The position numbers and the translations under genes are program-made. Shown here in pieces: positions 7,705 to 16,181 of a DNA stretch of 64,000 nucleotides (position 1 is its first letter; each line of letters starts with the position of its first letter). The stretch comes from Citrobacter sp. R56. Its GTDB lineage: Bacteria; Pseudomonadota; Gammaproteobacteria; Enterobacterales; Enterobacteriaceae. The stretch covers positions 2,418,001 to 2,482,000 of the forward strand of contig NZ_CP069159.1 in NCBI RefSeq assembly GCF_016811995.1. Direction: 5' to 3'. The notes under the pieces were generated by a model that saw only the letters and a program-made list of their open reading frames with translations, was not told the origin of the DNA and ran no database searches.

Positions 7705-8036
7705 TGCAGCTTTATCCAACAGACGATCAGCAGCCAGGCGCTTACCCCCCAGCATAAGACCGAGCCGCCAAGGGCGACCGGTAAGCGCATAAAGCCGGTG
7801 AAGTACCACAATGAAACCAGATACACAAAATAGGGAATGATCGACCACATACTAAACACGATGGTCGTACGTAACGCCTCTACCCCGCGCTCACTGGCCA
7901 CAATATAGTGTGCAATAAGCGCAAACGTTGGAAACAGAGGGATTAACCCGGCGATATAATAATTTTTTGTTTTTGCCAGCACACCGATCAACACCACCAC
8001 CAGCGCACCCAGCGCGGCTTTTATAACGAGTCCCAT
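7701..8036 (-). CDS. ydgC: Inner membrane protein YdgC (GlpM family)
   Basis: A 111-residue hydrophobic protein with about four membrane helices (MGLVIKAALGALVVVLIGVLA..., GLIPLFPTFALIAHY). It belongs to the GlpM-like family; no biochemical function is established. It is convergent with folM, sharing four bases, and divergent from rstA, with which it shares a ~120-bp control region. Confidence 0.88.
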   Translation of the reverse strand: MGLVIKAALGALVVVLIGVLAKTKNYYIAGLIPLFPTFALIAHYIVASERGVEALRTTIVFSMWSIIPYFVYLVSLWYFTGFMRLPVALGGSVLCWGVSAWLLIVCWIKLH

Positions 8037-8090
8037 TCCTCTGCCTTAACACATCGATAACATCAGTCTCTAGCATAACGGAAGCGATCT

Positions 8091-8107
8091 CGTTTAGAAA
8101 AGATTAA
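8091..8107 (+). promoter_or_regulatory. Candidate PhoP box upstream of rstA
   Basis: Two half-sites CGTTTA and GATTAA are spaced by exactly 5 bp, as in the (T/G)GTTTA-N5-(T/G)GTTTA PhoP box. rstA is a known PhoP target in enterics. The second half-site is imperfect and no well-placed -10 lies about 12 bp further on (a TATGTT lies at 8131), so this is only moderately supported. Confidence 0.35.
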
Positions 8108-8153
8108 TAGCAGCGAAAACAGCGGCGGTGTATGTTGTCGTTTTATATTCATA

Positions 8154-8897
8154 ATGAATGATATGAACACCATCGTATTTGTCGAAGATGAACCCGAAGT
8201 CGGCTCGCTGATTGCTGCCTACCTGGCCCGGCATGATATTGAGGTCATCGTTGAGCCTCGGGGCGATCGGGCTGAAGAGGTTATTCTGCGCACGCAACCC
8301 GATCTGGTGTTGTTGGATATCATGCTGCCGGGCAAAGACGGCATGAGCATTTGCCGCGACCTGCGCGAGCGCTGGCGTGGCCCCATCGTTCTGCTCACCT
8401 CGCTGGATAGCGATATGAATCATATCCTTGCGCTGGAAATGGGCGCCTGCGACTACATTCTGAAGACCACGCCACCTGCCGTGCTGCTGGCACGCCTGCG
8501 TTTGCATCTACGTCAGAGCGAACAGTCCGCCCATTCGAAAGGCATCCAGGATGCCATTGTCGCACCGCATAAAACGCTACGTTTTGGCACGCTCGCCATA
8601 GACCCCATCAACCGTACGGTGGTGTTATCAGGTGAGCCGGTTTCACTTTCCACAGCAGACTTTGAGCTTCTTTGGGAACTGGCAACGCATGCCGGGAAAA
8701 TAATGGATCGCGATGCGTTGCTGAAAAACCTACGGGGCGTAAGTTATGACGGGCTGGACCGCAGTGTGGACGTGGCGATTTCCCGTCTGCGGAAAAAATT
8801 GCAGGATAGCGCCACCGAGCCTTACCGAATTAAAACGGTTCGCAACAAAGGCTATTTGTTTGCTCCCCATGCCTGGGAAGATGCGCAACATGATTGA
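8154..8897 (+). CDS. rstA: Response regulator RstA
   Basis: OmpR/PhoB-type response regulator of the RstBA two-component system. The receiver domain (residues ~4-120) has the acidic pocket VEDEPE and the phospho-acceptor Asp at about residue 55 (LVLLDIMLPGKDG), plus the conserved LLTS and ILK motifs. The C-terminal winged helix covers ~140-240 and ends with RIKTVRNKGYLF. The E. coli protein begins at the second ATG (8163, MNTIVF), so 8154 or 8163 may be used. It ends APHAWEDAQHD, five residues longer than the E. coli form I recall. Here it is separated from rstB by a 5-kb insertion. Confidence 0.96.
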   Translation: MNDMNTIVFVEDEPEVGSLIAAYLARHDIEVIVEPRGDRAEEVILRTQPDLVLLDIMLPGKDGMSICRDLRERWRGPIVLLTSLDSDMNHILALEMGACDYILKTTPPAVLLARLRLHLRQSEQSAHSKGIQDAIVAPHKTLRFGTLAIDPINRTVVLSGEPVSLSTADFELLWELATHAGKIMDRDALLKNLRGVSYDGLDRSVDVAISRLRKKLQDSATEPYRIKTVRNKGYLFAPHAWEDAQHD

Positions 8898-8905
8898 TCG
8901 TTACA

Positions 8906-8946
8906 ACGTCACATCTGAACCAAAGAAGGCTTTCTGATTGTGACGT
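8906..8946. repeat. Imperfect inverted repeat at left island edge
   Basis: ACGTCACA (8906-8913) and TGTGACGT (8939-8946) are perfect inverted 8-mers around a partly paired interior (AAAG ... CTTT). They lie nine bases after the rstA stop. No T-tract follows, so a terminator role is doubtful; it may mark the island junction. Confidence 0.4.
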
Positions 8947-9063
8947 CAGTTGCTCCCCCTTTTTACACTCGACCGGCTGCGATGAGCGGACGTTAGCCTC
9001 ACGCGGATATCATCCGTTTGTCGGGGGCTGTCTAAACGGGAATGGCTCGGATTACAGGAACAC

Positions 9064-9546
9064 TTAGATTTTAAGTGCAGCAAGGATTGCGGCTTCCATT
9101 TTCTCTGGGGTGGTGAACGGTGCAAAACGCTTGATCGGTTTGCCGTCGCGCCCGATCAGGAACTTAGTGAAGTTCCACTTGATTCGCCCACCCAGTACGC
9201 CTGGCAATTCTGCTTTCAGGTAACAAAACACCGGGTGCGTAGCGGCGCCGTTGACCTCCACTTTCTCGAACATCGGGAAGCTCACACCGTAGTTGATGTA
9301 ACAGGTCTGAGCGATTTCGTCGGTGCCGCCGGGCTCCTGCTTACCGAACTGGTTGCAGGGGAAACCAAGCACTACCAGCCCCTGGTCGGCGTACTTCTTG
9401 TAGAGCGCTTCAAGTCCTGTGTATTGCGGCGTGAAGCCACAATGACTGGCGGTATTAACCACCAGAACCAGTTTACCCGCGTAGTCGGCCATAGAGATGA
9501 GCTGACCACGCAGGCTGGTGGCAGTCAGTTGATGAAAAGTGGTCAT
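9064..9546 (-). CDS. Glutathione peroxidase family protein (cysteine type)
   Basis: A 160-residue thioredoxin-fold peroxidase of the glutathione peroxidase family, expected to reduce peroxides using thioredoxin or glutathione. The active-site triad is visible: Cys36 in NTASHCGFTPQY (a Cys form, not selenocysteine), Gln in the FPCNQF motif (~residue 72) and Trp in KWNFTKFL (~125). It is shorter than E. coli BtuE (183 residues) and lacks the BtuE insertion before the Trp motif, so it is a different branch and I do not call it btuE. It sits between rstA and the AT-rich unknown genes, facing rstA, and is the first gene of the island. Confidence 0.88.
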   Translation of the reverse strand: MTTFHQLTATSLRGQLISMADYAGKLVLVVNTASHCGFTPQYTGLEALYKKYADQGLVVLGFPCNQFGKQEPGGTDEIAQTCYINYGVSFPMFEKVEVNGAATHPVFCYLKAELPGVLGGRIKWNFTKFLIGRDGKPIKRFAPFTTPEKMEAAILAALKI

Positions 9547-9593
9547 GTCGGAATCCTCAAAGCAGTGGCGATTTAGTAATACACTGTCGCAAA

Positions 9594-9872
9594 TTAATTA
9601 CGTTTAGATTGAGACAAAGTTTGATAAATTTTCCCTGCAAAATAAACCGTTGTAATAGCGAGAATGATGGAGAGGATACCCATAAAAATCATCACTGATA
9701 GAAGAGGATTTATTACGCCACCAAAACTTGTTACATACCCCAACCAGGAAAGATGTTCGGGACTAAGTATACGAAAAATGAACTCAGGAATTATTAGAAA
9801 AAAAATAATAACAGTCGAGATGTAAATGAATGCCTTCCGTTTTTTTCCCGCCATCCTACTTGCCCTCGTCAT
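9594..9872 (-). CDS. Small two-helix membrane protein, unknown
   Basis: I do not recognise this protein. It has up to 92 residues, with a basic N-terminus (MAGKKRKAF), one helix at about residues 14-34 (FIYISTVIIFFLIIPEFIF) and another at about 50-80 (LLSVMIFMGILSIILAITTV), then a short polar tail ending QSKRN. The ATG at 9854 has a GAGGG sequence 8-12 bases upstream and may be the true start; that at 9872 has none. It is AT-rich compared with rstA and rstB and is divergent from the 236-residue gene at 9922. The topology would suit an immunity or accessory membrane protein, but nothing proves this. Confidence 0.55.
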   Translation of the reverse strand: MTRASRMAGKKRKAFIYISTVIIFFLIIPEFIFRILSPEHLSWLGYVTSFGGVINPLLSVMIFMGILSIILAITTVYFAGKIYQTLSQSKRN

Positions 9873-9921
9873 CAGTATTGATCAATTATGAGGCAAAAAT
9901 GATACAGCATGGAGTAATAAA

Positions 9922-10632
9922 ATGTCACAGACCTATTTTCAACTACAGATGCAGTCCAAAAGACAATTAGCAATAGACCTCACAAACTCTCTACGCAGCA
10001 TCCACGGAAATCTGATATCCACAATCAACAGCGCTAAAATGGGCACACAACGCCTGATCAACTATGGTTCCTGCGTTATCCCTGATGAATACTATCGCAG
10101 CGCGTGCCGTGACATGATGCGTGAAGATGAGAGATTGCTTTTGGCTGTAGGTGAGATTTTTAATCGCCAGGACGTCACTGTCGATATGGTTTCCATTTAT
10201 TTTAAGAAAACTCTTAAAATAATCGATAACAACAAAGCTAATGATCTCGTGTCATTCCTACACGAAAAACTAGGGTTTGCAGCTAACAAAGCGGCTGGCA
10301 AAGTTAGCAACATGTCACTGGCAATAACTATTGCAAAATTAATTATTAGCTCAGGTAACTTTAAGGAAACTCATATCAACATGGTTAATAAGTTTGCGTC
10401 ATGGTTTATTAGTGGCGCATCAATATATGGCAATGCTCAATTAGCTGCCTCAGCAGCAAATAAGTTAAAATTCCAGGACTCCGAGTATTATAATTTACTT
10501 TATAAAGAAAATTTAGAAATGCTTTACTTCACAATTGAACCGTTCATGACAAAGATAATTTATCAAATAGAGTCAGGAGATAACAGGCCTGAAATTATAG
10601 CCGATGCTTTGTATGAGATACTGAAGAAATGA
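9922..10632 (+). CDS. Unknown helical protein, first gene of a two-gene unit
   Basis: I cannot assign a family. The 236 residues are predicted by eye to be almost all helical, with a charged N-terminal half (RSACRDMMREDERLLLAV) and two weakly hydrophobic, Ala/Ser/Gly-rich stretches at about residues 130-150 (NMSLAITIAKLIISSG) and 165-190 (SWFISGASIYGNAQLAASAA). There is no signal peptide. A GGAG ribosome site lies nine bases before the ATG. Its stop overlaps the next start as ATGA, so the two proteins are very likely co-translated. Base composition is clearly more AT-rich than the core genes, suggesting acquisition. Amphipathic segments plus a small membrane partner resemble toxin/immunity pairs, which is a hypothesis only. 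Confidence 0.65.
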   Translation: MSQTYFQLQMQSKRQLAIDLTNSLRSIHGNLISTINSAKMGTQRLINYGSCVIPDEYYRSACRDMMREDERLLLAVGEIFNRQDVTVDMVSIYFKKTLKIIDNNKANDLVSFLHEKLGFAANKAAGKVSNMSLAITIAKLIISSGNFKETHINMVNKFASWFISGASIYGNAQLAASAANKLKFQDSEYYNLLYKENLEMLYFTIEPFMTKIIYQIESGDNRPEIIADALYEILKK

Positions 10633-10805
10633 AGAAACTGATTCTATGGCTATTGCAGTCTTTTTTTTACCTTGTGCCAGTCATAGTGAGTGTGATTGGT
10701 GCTTATTTCATTGTTCGTTTCATTCCGTTTTATCCAAGGGTTTTCGTTGTACTTTGGGTTATTATTGTTGCTTACCTATATGTAAGATACAGCAAATGGG
10801 TTTAG
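10629..10805 (+). CDS. 58-residue membrane protein coupled to the upstream unknown gene
   Basis: A short open frame starting MKKLILWLLQSF and ending VRYSKWV. It has two clear membrane helices (LVPVIVSVIGAYFIVRFI and VFVVLWVIIVAYLYV) separated by a tight FYPR turn. The start overlaps the stop of the 236-residue gene (ATGA), the classical sign of translational coupling. The function is unknown; small two-helix partners are common as immunity or anchor proteins, but no family was recognised. Confidence 0.6.
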   Translation: MKKLILWLLQSFFYLVPVIVSVIGAYFIVRFIPFYPRVFVVLWVIIVAYLYVRYSKWV

Positions 10806-11192
10806 CCCTTTTAATCAGAACAGATAGTCGGCCTTGAGCGAGGAGCGGACGTCGCTGTCTGTTCACTGAACCAATTCGGTAATTGCCAGCTCAGCAACTT
10901 CTAATGTAGTGGATGCTGTATCATTGCTGTCGAGTGACACTGTTGTTGAGAGACCGCTCCACGCAATTATCCATTTGAGTTGACGCTCTCTATCCAGACC
11001 AGACATTTCTGGTAACAAATCTCAGTCGTTGTTTAAATATACCTGGCACAGTGGACTGGTGAGCTTTCTCAAAGCTTAAATTTTTAGTTCCCTATATCAC
11101 GTGGTTTTGCTTGTTGCCGGATTTCAACTCTTGAACAAACATCAGTGCTATTGCCCGTAAATTCAACACAACGCGGCAAGCAAATTTGCGAG
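10806..11192. other. Island spacer, 387 bp
   Basis: Apart from the small open frame at 10863-11006, I see no gene here. The stretch 11007-11192 is AT-rich, without repeats or hairpins that I would call. Confidence 0.5.
10863..11006 (-). CDS. Possible 47-residue ORF or gene remnant
   Basis: An open frame from ATG at 11006 to TGA at 10863 encodes a protein that starts MSGLDRERQLKWIIAWSG and ends LEVAELAITELVQ. Its amino acid composition looks protein-like, with a helical tail, but there is no clear ribosome site and the frame is stopped only five codons upstream of the ATG. It may be the end of a decayed phage or plasmid gene. No family was recognised. Confidence 0.3.
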   Translation of the reverse strand: MSGLDRERQLKWIIAWSGLSTTVSLDSNDTASTTLEVAELAITELVQ

Positions 11193-12341
11193 TCAAGGCG
11201 TCGTGGCTAATTCTGATACGCGAAGGGGTTTACATAACCAGGCTGTCAGCGCGCAGGCTGTGAGAACAAGCCCCAACTGTTGTACCAGACCAGCGACTCC
11301 CAGCATTACACCTAGCAGTAAATAGTAGGTCAATCCGAATAATGCTCCGGCAGTTCCCGCTTGCTCCCGATAGTGACGTAGAGCATTGCTCAGTATATTA
11401 GGTATCGCAATCCCATAGGCGACGACAACTCCGGTAACAGGCATTAAAATCCACGGCGAATTCTGTAAGCTCCATGCGACAAGACTGGATAACAGGGCCA
11501 AACTACAAGCATGACGAACCAATTGCGCAGGTTCCAGGCCTGTGACCAGTAACTTCCGGTTCAGAAGACTTCCAGATAGCGAGGCAATCGCCAGTAGTAA
11601 TCCCGTCCACCCAAATGCTCTGGCTCCCCAACCCAACTGCTCGAAAAGAAACGGTGCCAGGCTGTAATAACTGAAGATCATTGCATTGAACAGTGAAACC
11701 AGCATTGCATTTCGCCAAAGCGAACTGTCACACGCCATGCGGACAGCCAGACAGCCCATACGAGGTGTTATTGTATTTAACGGCCGTGTTTCCGGCAGCA
11801 TAAAGGCAGTAAGTACCAGCAGCAATATCGCCAGCAACGACAGTGCAATAAATACCCCAATATGACCGTAAATACTCACAATCCAGCCCCCGCTCACCAA
11901 ACCAAACACCGGACTGACTGCCAGTGCAGCCCCCATGATAGAAAATACGCGAGCCAGGTTCGTGGATTCATAACTGTCCCGTAACATAGTCTGCACCACG
12001 ACAGATCCTGCAGCAGCACCCAGAGCTGACAACATGCGAGCCAATAACAACATATTAAAATCTGTAGCAACTATCGCCATCACGGCTCCTGACCCATAGC
12101 AGGTCAGGCCAAACATCATGGCAAGACGTCTACCAATGCGATCACTCAACCAACCCCATAGTGCTACACCAATAGCAAAGGCGACAAAGTAAACTGAAAG
12201 TGTCTGAGCGGTACGTTCACTGCTCACATTGAATGTAAGAGCAATGTTTGGTAACGCCGGGCTGTAGATCGTTTCCACGAGTTGCGGAAACATGATCAGC
12301 AGAGTTAACAACCACAGTGGCGGTCGGTTAATAGTATTCAT
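11193..12341 (-). CDS. MFS efflux transporter, Bcr/CflA-like
   Basis: A 382-residue major facilitator with twelve hydrophobic segments. It resembles drug:H+ antiporters of the Bcr/CflA (DHA1) group: the loop 2-3 motif A appears as GWLSDRIGRRLAMM, helix 5 has the antiporter-like PVFGLVSGGWIV, and helix 1 is followed by the ETIYSPALPNIA pattern with D/E-x-YxPALP typical of this group. The substrate cannot be told from sequence. The gene is divergent from an AraC-type regulator, with 97 bp between the starts, an arrangement typical of an inducible efflux gene with its own activator. Confidence 0.85.
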   Translation of the reverse strand: MNTINRPPLWLLTLLIMFPQLVETIYSPALPNIALTFNVSSERTAQTLSVYFVAFAIGVALWGWLSDRIGRRLAMMFGLTCYGSGAVMAIVATDFNMLLLARMLSALGAAAGSVVVQTMLRDSYESTNLARVFSIMGAALAVSPVFGLVSGGWIVSIYGHIGVFIALSLLAILLLVLTAFMLPETRPLNTITPRMGCLAVRMACDSSLWRNAMLVSLFNAMIFSYYSLAPFLFEQLGWGARAFGWTGLLLAIASLSGSLLNRKLLVTGLEPAQLVRHACSLALLSSLVAWSLQNSPWILMPVTGVVVAYGIAIPNILSNALRHYREQAGTAGALFGLTYYLLLGVMLGVAGLVQQLGLVLTACALTAWLCKPLRVSELATTP

Positions 12342-12438
12342 AGCGATGCTTCAATAATGAGGGAATAGATACCATTATTGCGGAAAGGAAGTGGTCACAT
12401 TACAATCATAAGGACTAAATATATAAAATATCGGACAA

Positions 12439-13221
12439 ATGGCTAAAATTAATCCGGATCAATTTTTTGACGCAGATAGCTTCGATACCCCAGTAATCGG
12501 TATTGCAGCCGATCTGGGGCTGCATGATTCTGGTCGACACAGCCACCGTCGCCATCAATTGCTATTTTCTGCTGCGGGTTGTATCACTATTGAGCTGGAA
12601 AAAACCTTATGCCTACTTCCACCGCGTCGTGCTGCCTGGATCCCCGCAGGCACTGTTCATCGTGCCATGATGCGTGGCGTTATGGCTTACCGCTCTCTGT
12701 ATTTTTCAACTACGCTACCATTTCCTGATATGCCATTACAGGTTGTAGCGGTAAATCCTCTCTTTTACGAAGTCATTGAACGGATGGCATTTTGGTCATG
12801 GGACATGCCTGCGAGTCAACAGACCAGCCTGATCACCGTATTTAGTGAAGAGCTACACACAGCGCGTAGTGAGAACTGGAGTTTACAGTTTCCCTCAGAT
12901 CCGCGTCTGTGCTCATGGCTGGACAGCGTGCGCAGGGGCGAATTACCTCCACGACTGAGCCAACTGGCGCATCGAGTTGGTGCATGCGAGCGCACGATTA
13001 GTCGAATTTTTATCAGAGATACGGGGATGAATTATCAGAGCTGGCGACAACAATGGCGATTGCTGAAGGCAATGGAATTGGTTGCTGATGGAGCTAATAT
13101 AAATCAAATTGCGCAGCAACTGGAATTTGTCAGCGACAGTGCATTCATCGCATTTTTCCGTCAGCATACAGGTATAACACCAAAACATTATTCAAATAAG
13201 GCGCGAACCGGAGGTGAGTAG
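12439..13221 (+). CDS. AraC family transcriptional regulator
   Basis: A 260-residue regulator with an N-terminal cupin-like effector domain (residues ~10-110; RHSHRRHQLLFSAAGC and the AAWIPAGTVHRA motif) and a C-terminal AraC DNA-binding domain (~160-255) with two helix-turn-helix units: LAHRVGACERTISRIF and IAQQLEFVSDSAFIAFFRQHTGITPKHY. The cupin signature is like that of NimR and similar short AraC regulators that control a neighbouring MFS pump. By position it most likely controls the divergent gene at 11193-12341. Confidence 0.88.
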   Translation: MAKINPDQFFDADSFDTPVIGIAADLGLHDSGRHSHRRHQLLFSAAGCITIELEKTLCLLPPRRAAWIPAGTVHRAMMRGVMAYRSLYFSTTLPFPDMPLQVVAVNPLFYEVIERMAFWSWDMPASQQTSLITVFSEELHTARSENWSLQFPSDPRLCSWLDSVRRGELPPRLSQLAHRVGACERTISRIFIRDTGMNYQSWRQQWRLLKAMELVADGANINQIAQQLEFVSDSAFIAFFRQHTGITPKHYSNKARTGGE

Positions 13222-13521
13222 AACACGTTCAATATTAAATAATGACTCACTTCTATTTTACATTACGTACTTTCCATCTAAACAAGACCGTTTCGTTAAG
13301 AGGTAAGTACTGTCCGATTAAAAAGCGACCTTAGCGTGGAATATTTCTGTTTTCCCGGCAGCCCCAAAGGCAACGCCCGCTCCTGGCACTTAGCAGACAG
13401 GCCAGGAGCATGACATCAGTTATGAGCGAGGAGCGGGAATAGAGAATTTGGAAGAGTGAAACCCAGAATCTGCATTTTGTTTTTATCCCGCGGCACTGCG
13501 GGTAAGCAAATTGCACGTTAT
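13222..13521. other. Island spacer between regulator and integrase relic
   Basis: About 300 bp without a credible gene. A short GC-rich stretch (13370-13440) contains GAGCGAGGAGCGG, nearly repeated at 10838-10850 in the other spacer, which may be a shared relic of the element. Confidence 0.4.
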
Positions 13522-13846
13522 TCTGTGAGTTCCATTAATTCGATCTGGAACGTTGCCGTTCGTAGGGCGAACATACGACGTCGCCGTCCGTATCAGACAT
13601 GTCATACGTTTGCATGTTGGATGTTGGATGTTGGATGTTGGATGTTGGATGTTGTCAGCCGGTGCAAACCCTGCTTTTATAGCAACACAAATGGGACATG
13701 AAAACGCACAGCTGGTTTATACAGTGTACTCTGCCTGGATAAGCGCGCTTGACGGTGATCAGATTGAATTTCTGAACCAGCGTATCAGTGGATACAGTCA
13801 TGCCTCCACATGCCCCCACATGCCCCCAGGGGTCAAGGCGCACTAG
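13522..13846 (+). pseudogene. Tyrosine integrase C-terminal relic, frameshifted
   Basis: Two frames together give the C-terminal catalytic part of a phage-type tyrosine recombinase: INSIWNVAVRRANIR then YQTCHTFACWML in the first frame, then SAGANPAFIATQMGHENAQ and VYTVYSAWI (catalytic Tyr) in the next frame. The N-terminal half is absent. The junction of frames is an expanded ATGTTGG repeat (13614-13654). In addition the box II arginine of the usual QTRHTFA is Cys (QTCHTFA), so the enzyme would be dead even if in frame. It ends 29 bp before rstB and identifies the 8.9-13.9 kb segment as an integrated element that has decayed. Confidence 0.85.
13614..13654. repeat. Heptanucleotide tandem repeat ATGTTGG x 5.9
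   Basis: Five perfect copies of ATGTTGG followed by six of its seven bases. It lies exactly where the integrase sequence CWML should be followed by SAGAN; the unexpanded form would hold about 1.9 copies, so four extra copies (28 bp) shift the frame by +1. Confidence 0.95.
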
Positions 13847-13875
13847 CTAACGTATTGAACTTCCGGTAAATTATC

Positions 13876-15183
13876 ATGAAGAAGCTGTTTGTGCAGTTTT
13901 ATCTGTTGCTGTTTGTCTGCTTTCTGGTCATGACCTTGCTGGTTGGTTTAGTTTATAAATTCACTGCCGAGCGTGCGGGCAGGCAATCGCTCGACGATTT
14001 GATGAAAAGTTCGCTGTACCTTATGCGCAGCGAACTGCGCGAAATCCCCCCCAGCGATTGGGGAAAAACCCTTAAAGAGATGGACCTCAATCTCTCGTTC
14101 GATCTGCGTGTCGAACCGCTGAATAAATACAAACTGGATAGCGTCACGACGCAGCGACTGCGGGAAGGCGACATCGTCGCGCTTGACGATCAATACACGT
14201 TTATTCAGCGTATTCCGCGCAGCCACTACGTGCTGGCCGTGGGGCCGGTGCCGTATCTCTATTTTCTGCATCAGATGCGTTTGCTGGATATGGCGTTGAT
14301 GGCCTTTATCGCTATCTCCCTCGCCTTTCCGGTTTTTATCTGGATGCGGCCACACTGGCAGGAGATGTTAAGGCTGGAATCCGCAGCGCAACGCTTCGGC
14401 GAGGGACATCTCACCGAGCGGCTCCATTTTGACAATGGTTCCAGCTTCGAACGCCTCGGGATCGCCTTTAACCAAATGGCGGATAACATCAACGCCCTTA
14501 TTGCCAGCAAGAAACAGCTTATCGATGGCATTGCCCACGAGCTCCGCACTCCGCTTGTACGTTTGCGCTATCGCCTGGAGATGAGCGACAACCTGAGCGA
14601 GCAAGAGTCGCTGGCGCTGAATCGCGATATTGGTCAACTGGAAGCATTGATTGAAGAATTACTGACCTATGCTCGCCTCGACCGGCCGCAAAATGAATTA
14701 CAGCTCACGGTCCCCAACCTCCCCGCCTGGCTGATTGCCCATCTTGACGATGTGCAAAGCGTCAATCCTGAACGCAAAGTACATCTGAGTAACCTGGTAT
14801 CAGGCGATTACGGCGCGCTGGATATGCGACTGATGGAGCGCGTACTGGATAACCTGCTTAACAATGCTTTGCGCTACTGTCATTCCACCGTGCATGTCAG
14901 TCTGCTGTTAGCGGGCAACCAGGCCACCCTGCTTGTTGAGGATGATGGCCCGGGTATCGCACCCGATGCGCGTGAACGCATCTTTGAGCCGTTTGTACGC
15001 CTCGATCCCAGCCGGGATCGCGCCACGGGCGGTTGCGGACTCGGATTAGCGATTGTTCGCTCAATCGCGCTGGCAATGGGGGGAACGGTAAGCTGTAGCG
15101 AAAGCACGTTGGGCGGCGCACAGTTCAGTTTCAACTGGCCAGTCTGGCACGACATCGCCGATTTCCCCCCTGTAAGACCTTAA
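13876..15183 (+). CDS. rstB: Sensor histidine kinase RstB
   Basis: Membrane-bound kinase partner of RstA, 435 residues. There is one N-terminal helix (~10-30), a periplasmic sensor domain to ~133, a second helix (~136-156), HAMP, the dimerisation/phosphoacceptor His at about residue 221 (IAHELRTPLVRLRYRLEMS), and the ATPase boxes (NLLNNALRYC, VEDDGPGIA, GGCGLGLAIV). The start MKKLFVQF matches the family. Its upstream DNA is the integrase relic rather than rstA, and only a weak ribosome site (TTCCGGT) is visible, so its expression is probably no longer coupled to rstA. Confidence 0.96.
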   Translation: MKKLFVQFYLLLFVCFLVMTLLVGLVYKFTAERAGRQSLDDLMKSSLYLMRSELREIPPSDWGKTLKEMDLNLSFDLRVEPLNKYKLDSVTTQRLREGDIVALDDQYTFIQRIPRSHYVLAVGPVPYLYFLHQMRLLDMALMAFIAISLAFPVFIWMRPHWQEMLRLESAAQRFGEGHLTERLHFDNGSSFERLGIAFNQMADNINALIASKKQLIDGIAHELRTPLVRLRYRLEMSDNLSEQESLALNRDIGQLEALIEELLTYARLDRPQNELQLTVPNLPAWLIAHLDDVQSVNPERKVHLSNLVSGDYGALDMRLMERVLDNLLNNALRYCHSTVHVSLLLAGNQATLLVEDDGPGIAPDARERIFEPFVRLDPSRDRATGGCGLGLAIVRSIALAMGGTVSCSESTLGGAQFSFNWPVWHDIADFPPVRP

Positions 15184-15219
15184 CCGCACGGTGGTCAGGC
15201 GTGGAATGTTGTGGTATAC

Positions 15220-15242
15220 AATAAGTATGTTGTAACTAAAAT
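15220..15242 (+). other. TerB replication fork barrier site
   Basis: The segment AATAAGTATGTTGTAACTAA and the next three bases match the 23-bp E. coli TerB, as I recall it, at all positions but one. It ends 9 bp before tus, the usual place, where Tus binding also represses tus. From the G at position 6, the blocking face is on the left: forks moving towards higher coordinates are stopped. Confidence 0.93.
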
Positions 15243-15251
15243 GGTGAACAT

Positions 15252-16181
15252 ATGGCCCGTTACGATCTCGTTGAACGCCTGAATGGTACCTTTCGCCAGA
15301 TAGAGCAAGAACTGGCAGACCTGACGGAAAAGCTTGAGCAGCATACCTTGCTGATTGCGCGTGTCTTTTCCCTGCCTGAAGTGACAAAAGAGGCCGAACA
15401 TTCGCCGCTGGAAACCATCGACGTTAAACAGCATCTGGGAAAAGAAGCCGAAGCGCTGGCTTTGCGCCATTACCGTCACCTGTTTATCCAGCAACAGTCT
15501 GAAAACCGCAGCAGCAAAGCCGCAGTACGTCTTCCGGGGGTGCTTTGCTATCAGGTTGATCATGCCACGCAGGCGATGCTCGAAAATAGGATACAACGCA
15601 TCAACCAGTTAAAAACCACGTTTGAGCATCTTGTGACGGTCGAATCCGCCCTTGCGCCCAATGCGCGTTTCGAATGGGTACACCGGCATTTACCAGGGCT
15701 TATTACGCTGAATGCTTACCGTACACTGACGGTTATTCGGGATCCGGCCACTCTGCGATTTGGCTGGGCAAACAAACATATTATCAAGAATTTGCGCCGC
15801 GATGATGTTCTGGCGCAGCTGGAGAAGAGTCTCAGTTCGCCGCGTAGCGTTTACCCATGGACCCGCGAAGAGTGGCAGACCAAACTGGAGCGCGAATATC
15901 AGGATATCGCTGCCCTGGAGCAACACGCCAGACTGAAGATTAAGCGGCCGGTGAAAGTGCAACCTATCGCCAGAGTCTGGTACAAAGGGCAACAGAAACA
16001 GGTTCAGCACGCCTGCCCGACACCGCTTATCGCGTTGATTAATACGGATAACGGCGCTGGCGTACCGGATATTGGTGAATTGTTAAACTACGATGCTGAA
16101 AATATTCAGCACCGTTTTAAACCCCAGGCACAGCCGTTACGATTGATCATCCCACGGCTGCACCTGTATGTGGCGGATTAA
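15252..16181 (+). CDS. tus: Replication terminus-binding protein Tus
   Basis: Tus binds Ter sites as a monomer and stops DnaB helicase in one orientation. The 309 residues match the family length (E. coli 309). Recognised from [19 protein letters not shown], the [15 protein letters not shown] region and the DNA-contacting [26 protein letters not shown]. TerB lies immediately upstream. The stop codon overlaps the convergent fumC by four bases. Confidence 0.97.

Follow-up and report, generated by a model that had tools for sequence, protein, structure and literature searches.

SXT/R391 elements integrate at the 5' end of prfC, and the element supplies the gene's new start region. The locus described here shares with them integration at a gene start and a new start region from the element; SXT/R391 elements are, however, conjugative and use another integrase, whereas the invader here is a lambdoid phage and its target belongs to a two-component system. 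SpyCIM1, which sits between mutS and mutL of Streptococcus pyogenes, is likewise a phage element parting an operon. Its hallmark is regulated excision, whereas the stretch studied here has a broken integrase and no left site, so that regulated, precise excision is not expected. The Rac prophage, whose IntR (52% identity) is, with the integrase of E. phage PHB10 (55%), the nearest named kin of the integrase discussed below, integrates elsewhere than rstB, at ttcA. The closest published parallel is prophage HK022 at torS/torT of Escherichia coli, where a phage promoter has been shown to drive torS (PMC6814406). In both cases a lambdoid prophage lies beside a sensor-kinase gene, int is next to the kinase and the host upstream sequence is replaced. 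HK022 lies between divergent genes and outside the kinase frame, and its promoter has been demonstrated (PMC6814406), whereas at rstB the core lies inside the first codons, co-directional genes are parted, the promoter is a candidate only and our window holds the scar alone. Among the literature matches listed, taken as titles and abstract beginnings from a set that subscription papers mostly lie outside, nothing concerned a prophage at rstB or a split rstA/rstB, and the passages considered from PMC11004495 and PMC12131781 do not mention the split. The split as such is already visible in published Salmonella Typhi locus tags: a table in PMC7285189 lists STY1651 for RstB and STY1647 for RstA, which fits the presence of intervening genes.

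We analyzed a 64,000-nucleotide stretch of the Citrobacter sp. R56 chromosome (the window), in which the junction is composed as follows.

8092..8107, plus strand: PhoP-box-like element upstream of rstA (2 mismatches in the 10 core positions)
8154..8897, plus strand: rstA, response regulator (NCBIfam RstA equivalog, 468.7 bits; cut-off 330)
8979..9565, minus strand: gpx module with a glutathione-peroxidase gene (9064-9546, minus strand; Pfam GSHPx, 5.8e-41)
9594..9872, minus strand: 92-aa open reading frame of low G+C, no curated family match above cut-off
9922..10632, plus strand: 236-aa open reading frame of a phage-associated family (phrog_26461, E 4.5e-31)
10629..10805, plus strand: 58-aa open reading frame overlapping the 236-aa frame, no family match
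10837..13331, no single strand: cargo block with a Bcr/CflA-type MFS gene (11193-12341, minus strand) and a divergent AraC-type regulator gene (12439-13221, plus strand)
13441..13846, plus strand: integrase relic, two pieces from the C-terminal part of a lambdoid tyrosine integrase, with its stop codon at 13844-13846
13847..13875, plus strand: right-end scar, the 29-bp spacer from integrase stop to rstB start, containing a weak ribosome site
13876..13901, plus strand: rstB start, corresponding to the phage attachment core (at most 26 bp) from the attB/attL/attR comparison in Enterobacter
13876..15183, plus strand: rstB, sensor histidine kinase (NCBIfam RstB equivalog, 806.5 bits; cut-off 478)

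Both genes match their equivalog models over almost their full length, with scores far above the cut-offs. Since the RstA match begins only at residue 4, the true rstA start may be 8163 instead of 8154. From the rstA stop at 8897 to the rstB start at 13876 the gap is 4,978 bp, in place of the canonical adjacency of the rstAB operon. The sequence-only reading had described the two genes as split, the kinase gene as parted from the rstA promoter, the intervening genes as foreign-looking and rstB as preceded by an integrase relic 29 bp away and a weak ribosome site; each of these points was confirmed, the foreign-looking genes being the gpx gene, the small open reading frames, the phrog_26461 frame, the MFS/AraC pair and the relic itself. 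The PhoP-box-like element was called with a motif that we take to represent the PhoP box. A comparable element precedes rstA in E. coli (L039), and the element is weak evidence because 54 of 75 loci match at the same level of 2 mismatches in 10. The junction stretch occurs once in the source assembly, and G+C is 35-40% over 9500-10999. An assembly artefact is unlikely, as the same-species genome G228 and many named genomes are likewise split at this junction.

To place the arrangement among relatives we used the best 80 of 219 named Enterobacteriaceae loci encoding an RstB relative. In the 74 loci measurable on one stretch, the gap was at most 30 bp in 36, 200-700 bp in 9 and at least 700 bp in 29. 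The idea of a one-off disruption was not supported: 38 of the 74 measured named loci carry intervening DNA, of 291-6,115 bp and with differing cargo, a proportion that is not a family-wide rate because the 80 loci are those nearest to the window's RstB. Among the remaining six, the genes are 56.0 kb (L090) and about 11.3 kb (L081) apart on one contig, and on separate contigs in L023, L066, L070 and L093. Gapped genera include Citrobacter, Salmonella, Klebsiella, Raoultella, Kluyvera and Enterobacter. A broader sample of 59 genomes, in most cases a single one per genus, yielded 21 with both genes above thresholds; leaving aside the window's own genome and Citrobacter sp. Awk 4 (genes on separate contigs), 2 of 19 were split, G024 by about 5 kb and G012 by about 1.1 kb. 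For G024, one in-frame TGA is reported in RstB. In E. coli, a 603-bp junction probe matched 5,370 of 5,426 genomes, 5,365 of which carry 80% or more of it at a single place; pieces up to about 0.8 kb apart count as joined, so that a small insertion could escape.

The gap in the window is filled with modules that have copies at other loci. A 94% copy of the gpx stretch is found elsewhere in the window's own genome, and a 92% copy at another place in G228. The block with the MFS gene (TIGR00710, 205.8 bits; cut-off 200.9) and the AraC-type regulator gene (HTH_18, 4.5e-20) recurs in G228 at 96%, where it lies some 41 kb away from rstA, flanked by GGDEF-type and oligopeptidase-type genes (named by eye). 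The 236-aa frame has a 96% copy in Awk 4, beside ychF-like and pth-like genes and away from rstA/rstB; because of this location, and because no phage record matches it, the frame is not clearly supported as a leftover of the prophage considered below. Several other origins were examined for the island. No transposon or integron family was found among the scanned island proteins (for NCBIfam, among the best 25 families per protein), six island proteins had no PADLOC match that would indicate an anti-phage defence island, and 8800-14000 had no match on an E. coli chromosome. Plasmid records matched in 83 cases, none over more than 80% of the query, and among the 20 of these matches listed it was the MFS-AraC part that matched, at about 72.6%. 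An RNA gene as integration target was unsupported, with no tRNA found in the window and nothing at the Rfam gathering threshold over 8000-15400. The repeat GAGCGAGGAGCGG occurs at two module borders and gave no explanation.

Cargo also turns over among relatives. G228 has a gap of 2,577 bp with a methyltransferase-like open reading frame (called by eye) and a 206-aa integrase C-terminal frame; its right edge is 93.7% identical to that of the window, with other cargo. A cargo scan of 30 of 51 cluster representatives found NicO, SDF and ClC transporters, an APH_6_hur-type kinase, FecCD-type ABC genes, GGDEF-EAL and LysR proteins and the phage protein Lom, and in Salmonella the junction carries a porin and an amidohydrolase. 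Such variety, and the presence of the window's modules elsewhere in the genome, are what would be expected if the junction were merely tolerant of insertions through homologous recombination or other elements, the integrase relic having arrived by chance. In the same direction points the distribution of integrase remnants. With the phage integrases L103 and L104, and then those of L090 and Awk 4, as queries, the stretches upstream of rstB matched at E <=1e-3 in 15 of 45 gapped loci (one of them a query's own locus) and at E <=0.1 in 19 of 45; the other 30 of 45, Salmonella included, have no remnant at E <=1e-3, and the 0.57-0.62 kb insertion of Enterobacter/Lelliottia lacks an integrase altogether. 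Nevertheless, we consider mere tolerance unlikely, as the place and spacing of the relic are those of intact integrases in prophages that demonstrably use the rstB start, and the right edges of the gapped relatives G228 and Awk 4 are not unrelated to that of the window.

The relic matches a phage integrase at E 1.4e-21. Its nearest relative is the integrase of Awk 4 (tblastn E 6.4e-42; the two aligned pieces are 52% and 83% identical), which is nearly complete, frame-broken and likewise 29 bp before rstB (L023). Intact integrases ending 29 bp before rstB are found in Enterobacter wuhouensis L066 and Enterobacter quasihormaechei L090, and the 29-bp spacing is identical in the window, L066, L090, Awk 4 and G228; other loci carry C-terminal relics of the integrase. 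In L090, a lambdoid prophage lies within the 56 kb separating rstA from rstB, with an integrase (phrog_1, 8.4e-64) and an excisionase (phrog_539, 5.5e-21) at one end; the sampled pieces encode tail fibre J, tail fibres, a terminase small subunit, a Q-like antiterminator, RecT, excisionase and integrase. A 38-bp repeat, cggtgatatttaATGaaaaagctgtttgtacagtttta, occurs 1.4 kb past rstA and again at rstB -12, covering the rstB start. In L066, a 31-bp repeat is common to the rstB side and the contig with rstA, so that the Enterobacter lysogens have end repeats (38 bp and 31 bp) as well as a matching empty site. A pattern scan of IMG/VR for the rstB start returned 27 stretches on 25 contigs: in 20 an integrase adjoins the rstB start, 96-98% identical to that of L090 where complete, and in 7 there is a stub reading MKKLFVQF-stop. 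The subfamily is otherwise thinly represented, with identity below 60% in all 755 matching phage records. In genomes of the family, 10 of 198 pass E 1e-110 and only the rstB copy of Awk 4 (67%) clearly belongs to it, the other 11 matches being 50-55% identical. An intact integrase of the rstB type is rare.

Comparison of empty and occupied sites delimits the attachment core. Upstream, all 60 of 60 bp of the empty site of Enterobacter chuandaensis (L043) recur unchanged in the left ends L137 and L143, and 58 of 60 in L120. Downstream, right ends agree with empty sites over 171 of 174 bp in each case (L123 with L043, L124 and L127 with L097). L122, L126 and L139 are left ends similar to the empty site L097; their ungapped match of 34 of 60 is low because a 4-nt tandem unit differs. 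From the empty sites, left ends and right ends together, the core is at most 26 bp, namely rstB codons 1-8 plus 2 nt, and integration swaps the rstB leader. In L090 and L138, the left copy already carries the phage-type leader, as if that site had been used earlier.

In the window, the core sequence is present in a single copy, and no left-end rstB stub was found after rstA within 3 mismatches, the best match (9 of 26 mismatches) being at chance level. The window thus retains the integrase remnant and the right-end scar of a prophage at rstB and lacks the left-end stub. Possible stubs occur in relatives. In Awk 4, ATGAAAAAG lies 12 bp past the rstA stop, followed by other DNA; it may be a decayed left stub, nine bases being weak evidence. 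Klebsiella michiganensis L058 has a stub with 5 of 26 mismatches (minimum 10 in 20 shuffles) 15 bp past rstA, a position equal to the 15-bp spacer of empty K. oxytoca and K. spallanzanii, and in K. indica L047 the same position has 9 mismatches, by itself within chance. The Enterobacter left ends follow an insertion of their own of 0.6-1.4 kb, whereas that of Klebsiella directly follows the short spacer, so that two integrations at least are independent.

We also scored right edges against the 32-bp right end of L090, a pass being a score reached by at most 10 of 1000 shuffles. Counting the source, 34 of the 46 loci that are gapped or split between contigs passed, versus 0 of 36 adjacent loci; with the ribosome-site part removed, 19 of 46 and 1 of 36 did so. 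The right-edge stretch of L079 contains Ns. Because L038, L042, L045 and L052, the Enterobacter/Lelliottia loci with gaps of 0.57-0.62 kb and no integrase trace, also pass the full test, the right-edge likeness is suggestive and not specific. On average, the rstB start itself differs from the core at 0.69 positions in gapped loci (n=39) and at 2.11 in adjacent loci (n=36; Mann-Whitney p = 2e-6), a comparison among related loci that may be read in either direction, as integration itself copies the core.

Together, these data lead us to propose, with good confidence, that the rstA-rstB junction is the attachment site of a lambdoid prophage family and that the window carries a decayed remnant, its gap filled from other loci. 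The tyrosine integrase of the family would recombine within the first 26 bp of rstB. In Enterobacter, integration separates rstA from rstB, the old leader staying on a short rstB stub at the left end, and joins rstB to the phage right end; rstB then begins 29 bp past the integrase stop, preceded by a phage-derived ribosome-site region. In the lineage of the window, the prophage would have decayed to the integrase C-terminus and the right-end scar while genes from other loci moved in. Both the scar and the modular make-up of the cargo are observed, and one old prophage is the presumed starting event.

The kinase gene remains intact. A frame of 429-436 aa is present in 79 of 79 loci checked, and dN/dS (NG86) ranged from 0.022 to 0.074 among 13 split pairs and from 0.027 to 0.045 among 8 adjacent ones, all 21 hand-chosen and some with saturated dS. 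The rstB of split lineages has thus evolved under purifying selection, which makes it very probable that the gene is still expressed. This bears on the reading that rstB of the window has been severed from transcription and is heading to loss, to which its weak ribosome site and the lack of a plus-strand consensus promoter after 11450 would lend some colour; given the intact frames, that of the window included, and a dN/dS of 0.065 between the window and Awk 4, we regard such a fate as highly improbable. The sequence-only reading had raised the case of relatives sharing the arrangement with an rstB promoter at its 3' edge. The shared edge was found, whereas the promoter was not: the consensus scan of 8850-13950 gave no plus-strand promoter-like site from 11450 to rstB. 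It gave no plus-strand terminator-like site between araC and rstB either, and for these two reasons the simplest guess is that rstB is transcribed by read-through from araC, a weak start within the scar being the alternative. By either route, kinase and regulator would now be expressed separately. RstB may be uncoupled from PhoP, or driven from the island, as the sequence-only reading suggested.

A further question is whether the phage end matters in itself, a phage promoter driving rstB in lysogens and the wiring being fixed in split lineages. The integrase reads towards rstB, as would suit such a role, and in HK022 a phage promoter next to int drives torS (PMC6814406). A TTGG(C/T)G-16-TATAGT element occurs in L066, in L090 and in 13 of the 20 IMG/VR right ends, at a distance of 55-82 bp upstream of rstB. 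Promoter-like sites in the lysogens nonetheless numbered 1 against 2.2 expected in shuffles; the element lies inside the integrase coding sequence, so that its conservation may be coding, and the consensus scan did not find it in the window. We therefore hold this possibility only tentatively. The same reserve applies to the broader proposal that the phage family has repeatedly captured RstB, swapping its leader for the phage's own promoter and ribosome site, that several genera have fixed the change and that the PhoPQ-RstBA relay has been rewired more than once, which we put forward as conceivable and somewhat doubtful.

The decayed-prophage reading offers a concrete explanation of why a textbook two-gene operon is split in many enterobacteria. 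With the attachment core defined, naturally empty, occupied and decayed states can be compared. If lysogens do drive rstB from the phage end, lysogeny would alter a link of the PhoPQ-RstBA cascade. What has been learned about RstBA in E. coli, with its contiguous pair, may not transfer to split genera such as Salmonella and Citrobacter.

Many of the Citrobacter islands that part rstA from rstB carry a palindrome-like element, GTTACA-N-TGTCAC, immediately 3' of rstA, and a gene for a NicO-type nickel/cobalt transporter between the two genes is common to 10 Citrobacter islands. Among the compared loci (L-numbers), these features are placed as follows.

GTTACA-N-TGTCAC element: window 8901-8912; gap starts of L024, L026, L031 and L034
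NicO-type gene: rstA-rstB gap of L027, L028, L034 and other Citrobacter islands

Two repeats were found within the island of the window. A tandem 7-base repeat, TTGGATG (13610-13658), lies within the integrase relic, where its two homologous pieces break. The sequence GAGCGAGGAGCGG occurs only twice in the genome, both times in the island and close to module borders (10835-10848 and 13423-13436), and a 93% relative is found at the border of the glutathione-peroxidase (gpx) module (8979-8993). There are two copies in the same-species genome G228 and three in Citrobacter sp. Awk 4.

In seven Enterobacter and Lelliottia loci (L038, L040, L042-L045 and L052), the rstA-rstB gap holds a separate insertion of ~0.6 kb, in which no integrase trace was detected. 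Just 5' of rstB, these loci also have an inverted repeat resembling CATGAAAA...TTTTCATG. The insertion is older than the prophage integrations at those loci. On the IMG/VR contig L129, which carries the integrase, rstB runs for its first 36 codons and then gives way to unrelated DNA, a structure that may represent a chimera, a deletion or a different integration state.

Between rstB and tus, window positions 15220-15240 are identical to the TerB core, which places the prophage site, at the rstB start, ~1.3 kb from a replication fork trap.
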